This document shows positions 14,797 through 16,569 of a stretch of 50,860 nt of DNA, one piece after another. Below the pieces are notes generated by a model. The model saw only the letters and a program-made list of their open reading frames with translations. It was not told where the DNA came from and did not search any database. The stretch covers positions 1-50,860 of the forward strand of contig JAWWBS010000007.1 of the NCBI GenBank assembly GCA_033720895.1, in the 5' to 3' direction. A program made the position numbers and the translations under genes. Numbering within the stretch: position 1 is the first letter of the stretch; each line of letters begins with the position of its first letter. This DNA is from Gammaproteobacteria bacterium. GTDB lineage: Bacteria; Pseudomonadota; Gammaproteobacteria; Natronospirales; JAJUFS01.

Positions 14797-15180
14797 ATGT
14801 TCAAGCAGATACTGGTTCTATTTGTAACCCCGGTCTTTCTTTTCGCGGGAATGGTTTCTTCCGTTCACGCTTACGGACCTCCGGCATCCGATACGGACCA
14901 GGCCCGGCATGCCGGCCTGGTAAGCACTGCCGACTACATCCAGCAGACCGATGCTGCCCAGATGCGCGATGCGGTGACTGAACACCTGATGCGCGACGAC
15001 GTGCAGGCGCAGATGGTGGAGCTTGGCGTGGATGTCGATGATGTCGAAGCCCGCGTAGCCGCCATGTCGGATGCCGAGGTCATGCAACTGCATGCCGACA
15101 TCGAACAGATGCCTGCGGGTGCGGCGATCAGCGATACCACGCTGATTCTCTTGATCATCCTGATCATACTTCTCGTATAG
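14797..15180 (+). CDS. PA2779-family small secreted/membrane protein, copy 1 (short tail)
   Basis: 127 residues, function unknown. A Sec-type signal peptide ends ...SSVHA. A conserved helical region follows (DYIQQTDAAQMRDAV, then DVEARVAAMSDAEVMQLHAD), then QMPAGAA and a hydrophobic tail TLILLIILIILLV that ends the protein. The start at 14797 follows GAGGAG at 8 nt; an upstream in-frame start (14770) is less likely. It is a tandem paralogue of the next gene, sharing the DVQAQ and DVEARVAAM blocks, but it lacks the IFPFI-type ending of copy 2. It sits 100 bp after typA and 35 bp before copy 2. Confidence 0.85.
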   Translation: MFKQILVLFVTPVFLFAGMVSSVHAYGPPASDTDQARHAGLVSTADYIQQTDAAQMRDAVTEHLMRDDVQAQMVELGVDVDDVEARVAAMSDAEVMQLHADIEQMPAGAAISDTTLILLIILIILLV

Positions 15181-15215
15181 TCGAGCAACCCCTTCTTCGA
15201 ACCGGGAGAACAGCA

Positions 15216-15602
15216 ATGAACAGAAAGATCATATCTGGAATTCTCACACCGATTTTCCTGCTGATGACGCTGGCTGCCCCCGCCCAGGCGGGTGGCATGA
15301 TCACCACCAGCGACTACGTCAAGCAGGTCGATGCGGATGCCACGCGGGCGGCATTGGTCGAGCAACTGAACCGCGAGGACGTACAGGCGCAATTGCTGGC
15401 ACTCGGTGTCGACCAGGCTGATGTCGAAGCCCGTGTCGCGGCGATGACCGATGCCGAAGTTGCCCAGCTGCATGCCGAAATGGAAGACATGCCGGCCGGT
15501 GCCGGTGCTGTCGGTACGTTGGCCGTGGTCCTGCTGGTATTGATTATTCTCGATGTGGCCGGCGTGACCAACATCTTCCCGTTCATCAACGCGGCGAACT
15601 GA
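15216..15602 (+). CDS. PA2779-family small secreted/membrane protein, copy 2
   Basis: 128 residues, function unknown. The signal peptide ends ...APAQA. The helical body has DYVKQVDADATRAAL, DVQAQLLALGVDQADVEARV and MTDAEVAQLHAEMEDMPAGAG. A C-terminal membrane segment ends VTNIFPFINAAN, the usual tail of the family. The start follows GGGAGAA. The next gene, the PA2778-type peptidase, begins 1 nt after the stop. The body upstream of MPAGA, ending in a small-residue pair, resembles a double-glycine leader (inference), so this protein may be a substrate of that peptidase. Confidence 0.88.
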   Translation: MNRKIISGILTPIFLLMTLAAPAQAGGMITTSDYVKQVDADATRAALVEQLNREDVQAQLLALGVDQADVEARVAAMTDAEVAQLHAEMEDMPAGAGAVGTLAVVLLVLIILDVAGVTNIFPFINAAN

Positions 15603-15603
15603 G

Positions 15604-16569
15604 TTGAGTGTATCGACGTATCCTGCCGGCGCCTGGCGTCGGCAGGTTTTTCTCGTTCTGGCGGTAGCGATTCTTGGCGGCTGCGCGTCGGGGCCGCCGC
15701 CCTTGCCGTGGCCCGAACAGAATGCCGAGACAGCCGTGGCGGGTGTGCCGTTCTTCCCGCAGGACTATCGCCAGTGCGGTCCGGCTTCGCTGGCCGCGCT
15801 GCTGTCCTGGAGCGGCGTCGAAACCACGCCACAGGATCTCGAGCCCTGGTTGTACATCCCGGAGAAAGGCGGTTCCTTGCAGCCGGAAATGCTGGCGGCG
15901 GCCCGTCGCAGCGGTCGGGTGCCCTATGTCATCCCTGCCACGCCCGAGGCCATGCTGGCCGAGCTCGAGGCCGGTCATCCTGTCCTGATCCTGCAGAACA
16001 ATGGCATCAGCTGGTATCCCGCGTGGCACTACGCGGTGGTCATCGGTTCGGACAGCGACACCATCACCTTGCGGTCAGGTGATTACGAGACGCTGCGCAC
16101 CGACGCTGCGGTATTCATGCGTACCTGGCAACGGGCGGATTACTGGGCCATGGTTGCCTTGCCGGAAGACCGCTTGCCGGTGACCGCATCTGCCGCCACC
16201 GTGGTTCGTGCCCTGGAGGCCTACGGGCGAGTGCAGGGCGAGATCGGCACGCGTGCCGGCCTGGAAAAGGCATTCGTCCGCTGGCCGAATGACCCGGAGG
16301 TGGCGCTGGCGCTGGGTAACCTGCATTACGGTGCCGGCGAGGCCGAGCAGGCGATCAGCGTCTGGCAGTCCGGCCTGGCGGGCGGTGAATCAGCGGCGCT
16401 GCGCAACAACCTCGCCTGGGTGCTCGCCGAGGAAGGGCGCGTGGCCGAGGCGCAAGCCATCCTGGAGCCCGCACTGGCTGCGCCGGCTGGCTTCGGTGCG
16501 CAGGTGCAGGCTACTGCTGCCTTCCTTGAATGCCTGGAGCAGGGCGGGTCGCTGTCCACTTGCCAATGA
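15604..16569 (+). CDS. PA2778-family C39-like cysteine peptidase lipoprotein with TPRs
   Basis: 321 residues. The start is TTG at 15604, one base after the previous stop; no ATG or GTG precedes the signal peptide in frame. Lipobox LGGC (Cys27) makes it a lipoprotein, so it acts outside the cytoplasmic membrane. The peptidase domain (about 45-190) has QCGPASLAALL (Cys58), WHYAVVIG (His142) and RSGDY (Asp160), a complete C39-like triad. TPR-like helices follow (about 205-300: ALALGNLHYGAGEAEQAI, NNLAWVLAEEGRVAEA). It is translationally coupled to the PA2779 paralogues; this gene pairing is known from Pseudomonas (PA2778/PA2779), but its role is not. Confidence 0.88.
   Translation: MSVSTYPAGAWRRQVFLVLAVAILGGCASGPPPLPWPEQNAETAVAGVPFFPQDYRQCGPASLAALLSWSGVETTPQDLEPWLYIPEKGGSLQPEMLAAARRSGRVPYVIPATPEAMLAELEAGHPVLILQNNGISWYPAWHYAVVIGSDSDTITLRSGDYETLRTDAAVFMRTWQRADYWAMVALPEDRLPVTASAATVVRALEAYGRVQGEIGTRAGLEKAFVRWPNDPEVALALGNLHYGAGEAEQAISVWQSGLAGGESAALRNNLAWVLAEEGRVAEAQAILEPALAAPAGFGAQVQATAAFLECLEQGGSLSTCQ

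Follow-up and report, generated by a model that had tools for sequence, protein, structure and literature searches.

PA2779-family proteins and the adjoining C39-like lipoprotein PA2778 form a conserved, dedicated pair with a candidate cleavage site at a Pro-Ala-Gly strip

Genes and features of the locus

The window analysed here, a stretch of 50,860 nucleotides from a gammaproteobacterial contig (JAWWBS010000007.1), contains three genes in a row on the + strand, which encode two copies of a PA2779-family protein followed by one PA2778-family protein. The trio is flanked on its 5' side by what we take to be a TypA/BipA-like GTPase gene and on its 3' side by what is presumably a tRNA-dihydrouridine synthase gene, both named by eye, and these flanks look like housekeeping-type genes.

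The first PA2779 copy (14797..15180, + strand, 127 amino acids) matches PF20332 (DUF6627) at 66.6 bits and NF033919 at 88.8 bits, and the second (15216..15602, +, 128 amino acids) at 110.1 and 127.5 bits, both copies being over the curated cut-offs of 27 and 40, respectively. Copy 1 consists of a Sec signal, a helical periplasmic domain, a P-A-G tripeptide (residues 106-108; 15112..15120, +), recognised from the sequence and from family conservation, and a membrane stretch. It is a short-tail form, without the TDxxGxTxxFPF-type end, so that the conserved C-terminal end of long-tail forms (T118 to F123) is missing. Copy 2 is a long-tail form. Signal cleavage after A25, placed by eye, would leave a mature chain with the conserved start G26-G27-M28-I29-T30-T31 (15291..15308, +), the corresponding start across the family being mostly [AG]-[MLIV]-[VI]-x-T. 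Its P-A-G occupies residues 93-95 (15492..15500, +) and is followed by a predicted membrane helix at residues 97-115 (15504..15560, +), for which the membrane location is suggested by hydrophobicity, and by the conserved C-terminal motif D113 ... T118 ... F121-P-F123 (15552..15584, +).

The PA2778 gene (15604..16569, +, 321 amino acids) begins with a TTG codon at 15604, one nucleotide past the stop of copy 2, and the 1-nt gap reported in the preliminary description is thus correct. The protein has a signal with a lipobox (LGGC, with Ala at +2), whose Cys27 is encoded at 15682..15684 (+), as expected from the same description, which had called it a lipoprotein. Profile matches, a structure model and fold comparison place a C39-like domain after the signal, followed by TPR helices at residues 197-312 (16192..16539, +). 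Residues considered below are Gln53 (15760..15762, +), a candidate oxyanion-hole residue, the catalytic candidates Cys58 (15775..15777, +) and His142 (16027..16029, +), Ser158 (16075..16077, +), which stands at the canonical C39 Asp place, and Trp254 in the TPR part (16363..16365, +), which covaries with residue 28 of PA2779.

The PA2779 family: a near-invariant strip before the membrane helix

Residue counts were made over 167 distinct PA2779 proteins from the fetched loci which score above 50 bits with a profile made for this analysis, related rows being included and matches below 50 bits left out. The strip before the tail is close to fixed, with Pro in 164/167, Ala in 163/167 and Gly in 160/167 proteins (the other seven have Ala at this last place), and the residue after it is loose (Gly 93, Ala 49, Ser 12, Glu 7). 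Other near-fixed places are R73 (167/167), E81 (166/167), G64 (160/167) and T31 (158/167), and S/T78-x-x-E81 looks like a helix capping box. The preliminary description had noted a DAEVxQLHAxxExMPAGA segment before a hydrophobic tail in both small proteins, which is indeed seen in both window copies. Across the family its Glu (166/167) and the P-A-G are kept, but the DAEVxQLHA wording is local, with His in 8/167 and Gln in 67/167 proteins at that place; likewise P-A-G is near invariant but the fourth residue of the supposed PAGA varies, and the conserved small-residue pair is A-G, not G-A. Poor conservation of this pair, which the same description had named as a refutation, therefore holds for G-A and not for A-G.

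The segment had also been likened to the double-glycine leaders cut by C39 peptidases. These leaders carry hydrophobic residues at P4, P7, P12 and P15. If Gly95 is taken as P1, PA2779 proteins have mostly hydrophobic residues at P4 (residue 92), P7 (89), P11 (85) and P14 (82), so the likeness holds at P4 and P7, but Pro at P3 is unusual and A-G stands in the place of G-G.

In the AlphaFold2 model of copy 2 (mean pLDDT 71.9) the P-A-G lies in a loop that follows helix 79-91 and leads into helix 97-115, and the latter is read as the membrane anchor. Since the strip lies between the last helix of the domain and the C-terminal membrane helix, a cut here would free the periplasmic domain. The same geometry would also suit a complex without any cutting, in which PA2779 tethers, places or restrains the peptidase and P-A-G serves as a helix cap or as a hinge ahead of the membrane helix; Pro and Gly often occur at such places, and lone short-tail PA2779 proteins far from any PA2778 still have PAG or PAA. 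A helix cap is one way to account for the strip, but the conservation of Ala94 exceeds what such a cap requires, and we consider a complex of this kind possible but unlikely. Comparison of the PA2779 model with PDB structures gave a best match of only E 2.6.

Two tail forms occur in the family. Long-tail proteins end in a TDxxGxTx[VI][FY]xF-type strip, in which D113 is found in 130/164, T118 in 140/144 and F121 in 128/144 sequences, whereas in short-tail proteins the chain stops after the membrane stretch. Besides window copy 1, short-tail examples are the first copy in genome G040, the copy in G037, the copies in G449, G450 and G451, and lone copies in the genus of G284, which have no PA2778 in the fetched region and sit between genes that look like, and that we presume to be, yciO-like and trpS-like genes. 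Both forms keep the domain and P-A-G, with PAA in some of the lone short-tail copies, which makes the domain, rather than a tail peptide, the likelier product if a cut takes place. The preliminary description had envisaged the opposite, namely that cleavage would free a very hydrophobic peptide. That the C-terminal peptide is itself an active molecule would fit the strong conservation of the long-tail end (D113, T118, F121), but short-tail paralogues, window copy 1 included, have a bare membrane stretch past P-A-G, the product would stay in the membrane, and an exporter gene does not recur beside the pair, except for a TolC-like gene in three loci; we regard this reading as very improbable, and the release of a hydrophobic peptide as unlikely to be the point of the system.

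A profile of the 39-residue strip comprising P-A-G and the membrane stretch was searched against 8 genomes, where it found PA2779 proteins at E 1.7e-9 or better and nothing but PA2779 below E 0.144. The idea of a sorting signal shared by several cargo proteins was dropped, as no further protein with a PAG tail appeared in these 8 genomes.

PA2778: a C39 fold with Ser in the third catalytic place

PA2778 scores 274.3 bits with NF033920 (cut-off 150 bits; profile positions 2-252) and 34.2 bits with PF13529 (cut-off 24), and it stays under the cut-off of 22 for PF03412, with 13.5 bits. The structure model has a mean pLDDT of 94.4. In a structure profile search with the full-length PA2778 alignment, TPR matches crowded out the rest, and the search was rerun with the C39 part; the fold was also compared by Foldseek and VIA-align. 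With VIA-align the nearest structure to the C39 part is 3erv (Z 17.4, rmsd 2.1 over 151 residues), followed by LahT with bound leader (6mpz, Z 16.2), PeiR and ComA (both 16.0) and PCAT1 (15.6); with matches from the two methods that include 3erv, 6mpz, 3k8u and PCAT1, the domain has the C39 fold. PA2778 is a lipoprotein with TPR repeats and has no transporter domain, which sets it apart from the PCAT type of enzyme.

Among 184 distinct sequences, 154 have both the catalytic Cys and His, and these define the intact set used for counts; 27 are short copies that lack the two residues, and three broken or partial C39 pieces of dead copies (two from locus L034, one from L143) were dropped. A 43-row alignment in which C58 and H142 are invariant offers no separate evidence, because its rows had been selected by the motifs CGP and WH and by length (of 62, 51 passed and 43 were used). 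The unselected observation is that Cys and His losses among the 184 are confined to the 27 short copies, which are not linked to PA2779, and the three broken pieces. Gln53 is present in 150/154 intact proteins.

The preliminary description had credited the peptidase with a full Cys-His-Asp triad. Cys58 and His142 stand, but the canonical Asp place holds Ser in 144/154 intact proteins, Thr in 7 and Asp in 1, and the Asp160 of the window protein is Asp in 10/154, so that in nearly all of them the third residue at the aligned place is neither the Asp nor the Asn of a C39 peptidase. In the HMMER alignment to structures the Ser place is matched in 3erv by the Asp of an Asp-Pro pair; the Asp of ComA falls two residues further on, which makes the register at this place less sure. 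From the fold and the conserved residues we infer that this domain acts as a Cys-His peptidase whose third place holds Ser, an atypical arrangement which counts against the reading of PA2778 as an enzyme acting on PA2779.

The closeness in fold to PeiR, a pseudomurein endoisopeptidase (Z 16.0), also recalls another type of target: PA2778 might act on other envelope substrates, either proteins or peptidoglycan peptides, with PA2779 as adaptor or chaperone. We think this improbable in view of the distribution of the two genes, to which we now turn.

Co-occurrence of the pair

Of 397 genomes, selected by asking for a completeness of at least 90, 46 have a PA2779 match over cut-off and 47 a PA2778 match, and in all 46 PA2779 genomes PA2778 is an adjacent gene (coordinates compared by eye), which bears out the co-occurrence that the preliminary description had proposed to check. 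The 47th PA2778 genome, G266, has a degraded copy. Within one genus, represented by 199 genomes, the 24 with a PA2778 match above 300 bits over the whole profile are exactly the 24 with a full-length PA2779. For 147/154 distinct intact C39 proteins, a PA2779 gene lies upstream in the same orientation and no more than 1.5 kb away, a figure which is not unbiased, because some of the loci were fetched through their PA2779 match. The best 80 of at least 561 named loci were fetched by PA2778 alone, and 74 of them contain PA2779; in the other six it lies on another stretch of the same genome. Two of these six lack PA2779 because PA2778 starts at the contig end, and the PA2779 found at the end of another contig in those two genomes may be the broken-off neighbour. 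Conversely, L007 is a 3.4-kb locus with PA2779 and no PA2778, from a genome (G053) which has PA2778 beside its other copy (L015). One locus of the pair is in Pseudomonas aeruginosa PA7 (L161).

Three of the six loci (L121, L134 and L163) have a TolC-like gene, named by eye, directly before PA2778, and their genomes contain a second PA2778 beside a short-tail PA2779, plus a lone long-tail copy. These three genomes, with one PA2778 behind a TolC-like gene and PA2779 elsewhere, fit a role of PA2778 on other envelope substrates, but the strict co-occurrence with PA2779 speaks against it, as does the neighbourhood, in which, apart from reading frames judged antisense, no other gene accompanies the pair in more than six of the scanned loci. 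Such antisense frames make up the top of the neighbour list.

Five weak PA2779 matches (L226-L230) were all taken as chance, because the match examined crosses a stop into the start of the next gene; for this check one was translated (in L247) and the reading frames of two were listed (L247, L248).

That PA2779 is the dedicated partner of the C39-like lipoprotein PA2778 is well supported by these observations, although the joint loss of adjacent genes can be a single deletion. The two proteins very probably work together physically, and as a real, conserved pair they are best read as an enzyme and its client.

Degraded relatives in one large genus

A PA2778 match at E<=1e-15 is found in 192 of the 199 genomes of the genus mentioned above, where 168 genomes other than the 24 have weaker matches only. 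Among the matches listed these weaker copies are short, extending from profile position 1 to about 180-205, with most of the TPR part missing. In the 27 distinct short copies that were read, Cys58 is replaced by Ser (16) or Gly (11) and His142 by Arg (22) or Gln (5), and Gln53 is gone in 25. No full-length PA2779 was found in genomes of the genus that have only a short C39 copy, and 25 of the 27 genomes of degraded copies have no PA2779 over cut-off.

The two exceptions are G545, which has an intact pair in addition to a degraded copy (L279, read), and G574, which has two short C39 matches, one of them read, and whose only PA2779 over cut-off is short-tail; G574 thus departs from strict pairing as far as the short-tail form goes. 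A further genome, G481, combines an intact copy with a second, short match of 122.7 bits. The dead copy of G266 lies in the same neighbourhood as intact pairs, the shared neighbours being, as judged by eye, thrS-like and FAD-oxidoreductase-like genes, and the other dead copies lie elsewhere.

In a quick, midpoint-rooted tree all 27 dead copies form one clade among the intact genes (SH-aLRT 99), so they count as one evolutionary event, and several independent decays were rejected. The confinement of Cys and His losses, in complete sequences, to the 27 copies not linked to PA2779 argues against a complex in which PA2778 does not cut. The short copies were also considered as FapD, the C39 peptidase of a Pseudomonas amyloid system; this was dropped, because they have lost the catalytic Cys on which FapD depends.

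Covariation between the two proteins

When 147 PA2778-PA2779 pairs (effective number 121) were submitted to direct-coupling analysis, the top inter-protein coupling was that of PA2778 residue 254 with PA2779 residue 28, at a score of 1.67, which ranks sixth among all pairs when near neighbours within a protein are excluded. Residue 28 lies three residues past the signal-cleavage site placed by eye in copy 2. The pair 271 x 29 takes ninth place among the inter-protein couplings, and residues 254 and 271 should, judging from the helix numbering of the model, face each other across one TPR hairpin (helices 247-260 and 264-276).

On the tree, Tyr254 goes with Ile or Val at position 28, with 10.3 concordant against 0.4 discordant cases among 17 independent pairs taken on well-supported branches (median p 0.003), a split which was chosen after the table had been seen; each of 254 and 28 has the other as its best partner, with 251 and 594 traits compared. 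No significance was obtained for two further splits (254 Leu with 28 Met, 271 Ser with 29 Ile). Random re-pairing reached 1.67 in 0 of 12 runs, and shuffles within coarse clusters in 0 of 31, the latter being close to random re-pairing since the cut gave six clusters and was too coarse. Under strict clade-preserving shuffles the best inter-protein score was at least 1.67 in 1 of 38, so that significance is borderline. When 20168 site pairs were scanned broadly, the pair 254 x 28 came second and did not stand apart from the rest, which weakens it as an indication of docking. The docking of the TPR part on the mature N-terminus through 254 and 28 is thus a lead from sequence comparison.

Among the top 100 pairs of the scan, TPR x N-terminus (27-35) accounts for 7 against 3.5 expected and C39 x helix 36-81 for 37 against 26.6. 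The strip around P-A-G (82-97) shows no excess with the C39 domain (10 against 8.2 expected), so that contact between the two finds no support from covariation; P-A-G itself cannot covary because it hardly varies. The lack of enrichment here, together with a top coupling between TPR part and mature N-terminus, fits a complex of the two proteins without cutting.

Membrane location and a proposed mechanism

A lipobox is recognised in 142/154 intact PA2778 proteins, in agreement with the lipoprotein nature of the window protein, and Asp at +2 is found in 0 of these 142, the other 12 being left out of the +2 count. By the E. coli Lol rule, a lipoprotein without Asp at +2 goes to the outer membrane. 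With its LGGC-A, the window PA2778 has a lipobox and no Asp at +2, and it is predicted, like the family, to lie in the outer membrane, whereas PA2779 would be anchored far away in the inner one, which speaks against a cut at that anchor. A cut would be compatible with this topology if it took place prior to export by Lol or if sorting followed a different rule; otherwise the topology favours one of the alternatives to cutting at the anchor.

The reading that we prefer is that the two proteins make up a dedicated envelope module. PA2779 would be exported by the Sec pathway, lose its signal and be held in the inner membrane by its C-terminal anchor, with the small helical domain in the periplasm, as its sequence and model suggest. 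PA2778, a predicted periplasm-facing lipoprotein, would act through its C39-fold domain as a Cys-His peptidase, to judge from the fold and the conserved residues, and its TPR part may bind PA2779, possibly by the mature N-terminus as the covariation hints. The most likely act is then a cut in the strip before the anchor, after P-A-G, by which the periplasmic domain would be freed from the membrane.

Confidence differs between the parts of this scheme. It is somewhat more likely than not that PA2778 cuts PA2779. Cleavage at P-A-G is plausible, but placing the site there falls a little short of an even bet, and the module as a whole, with cutting after P-A-G and release of the domain, is put forward with the same reserve. 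The substrate role which the preliminary description had given to PA2779 is accordingly kept as far as dedicated partnership goes, on the grounds of co-occurrence, adjacency and a PAG tail for which the 8 genomes searched gave no other protein, and the cut at P-A-G stays a candidate about which we are nearly evenly divided. More doubtful is the fullest version, in which a periplasmic stand-alone C39 lipoprotein of many Proteobacteria, with a short dead relative widespread in one large genus, grips its sole client by the mature N-terminus through the TPR part, cuts it at P-A-G and releases the domain.

Comparison with known systems

C39 peptidases are known mainly as the cytosolic, leader-cutting parts of ABC exporters. 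PA2778 shares with the C39 domains of such exporters (ComA, LahT, PCAT1) the fold and the Gln-Cys-His residues, but it is a stand-alone TPR lipoprotein, predicted to be periplasmic, with Ser at the Asp place. Similarly PA2779, as presumed substrate, resembles double-glycine substrates in having a helix followed by small residues, but differs from them in having PAG rather than GG, a Sec signal and a C-terminal anchor.

Another parallel is found in the GlyGly-CTERM tails processed by rhombosortase, where small residues before a C-terminal membrane helix are the cut site. PA2779 likewise has small residues just ahead of such a helix; PA2778, however, is C39-like and not a rhomboid, and it has a single dedicated partner in place of many cargo proteins.

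The nearest studied precedent for PA2778 is FapD, a C39 peptidase active in the periplasm in the Pseudomonas functional-amyloid (Fap) system, according to excerpts of PMC5557850 and PMC6173800. As described in the excerpt of PMC5557850, with which that of PMC6173800 agrees, the C38A change in FapD abolishes secretion of FapC and the FapD target is unclear; GG/GA sites in FapE or FapF are suspected. Like PA2778, FapD as portrayed in these excerpts is a Sec-exported, periplasmic C39-like domain without an ABC transporter; unlike PA2778 it works with the fap operon, and the excerpts mention neither lipobox nor TPR for it. In P. aeruginosa PA7, a genome which may or may not carry fapD, a search with the C39 profile of PA2778 gave no second match resembling FapD at E<=0.1, and the sole other match there, L327, is a GNAT fusion.

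In the profile libraries NF033920, NF033919 and DUF6627 are family names without a stated function. A literature search found no study of the PA2778-PA2779 pair and no report of PA2779 cleavage in print. With one client, a candidate site that hardly varies, a dead relative in nature and possibly a dock, the pair allows a direct test of what a periplasmic C39 peptidase cuts, and the answer would assign a function to two named families on which no study turned up.

The excerpts of PMC3985676, PMC3697988 and PMC10155442 do not treat the function of either protein, and the other papers that mention the genes are clinical, to judge from their titles. They place PA2779 divergent from the regulator gene PA2780, with 407 bp between them (PMC3985676), and PA2778 among the genes whose start codons are lost in clone CHA (PMC3697988). 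In P. stutzeri, a species of which strain DSM4166 has a PA2779 gene, the promoter of a PA2779-family gene, one of 26 candidates from RNA-seq, equalled the reference promoter in strength (excerpt of PMC10155442).

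Short relatives, broken copies and other settings of PA2778

The C39-fold lipoprotein PA2778 has short relatives (loci L078–L084 and L273–L298) in the genus of genome G284, and among the matches listed, at E ≤ 1e-15, such a relative is the sole PA2778-type match in 168 of the 199 species genomes of that genus. The catalytic Cys and His are absent from every distinct short copy read (27 of 27). Since this dead lipoprotein is nevertheless kept in so many genomes, it may have a role of its own.

Broken copies were also seen elsewhere, as in L034 (G165:C9), where an in-frame TAG splits PA2778 and a second pair is present in the same genome, and in L143, where a single reading frame holds just part of the protein. 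In L121, L134 and L163, PA2778 is immediately preceded by an outer-membrane gene, assigned by eye as TolC-like, and PA2779 lies at another place in the genome. In Pseudomonas aeruginosa PA7 (L327, G647), a C39-like part is fused to a GNAT acetyltransferase-like protein and adjoined by an apparent ATP-grasp-like gene; a reading frame in the window's own genome (L326, G000:C13) begins similarly to this fusion.

Variation in PA2779, the small probable partner protein

At the start of PA2779 copy 1 (window 14797–14910), additional residues separate the conserved GLVST strip from the signal peptide, which makes the mature N-terminus of this copy different from that of copy 2. Short-tail PA2779 also occurs on its own at one conserved site (L238–L246 and L249), flanked by genes assigned by eye as yciO-like and trpS-like, and in several of these lone copies PAG is replaced by PAA.
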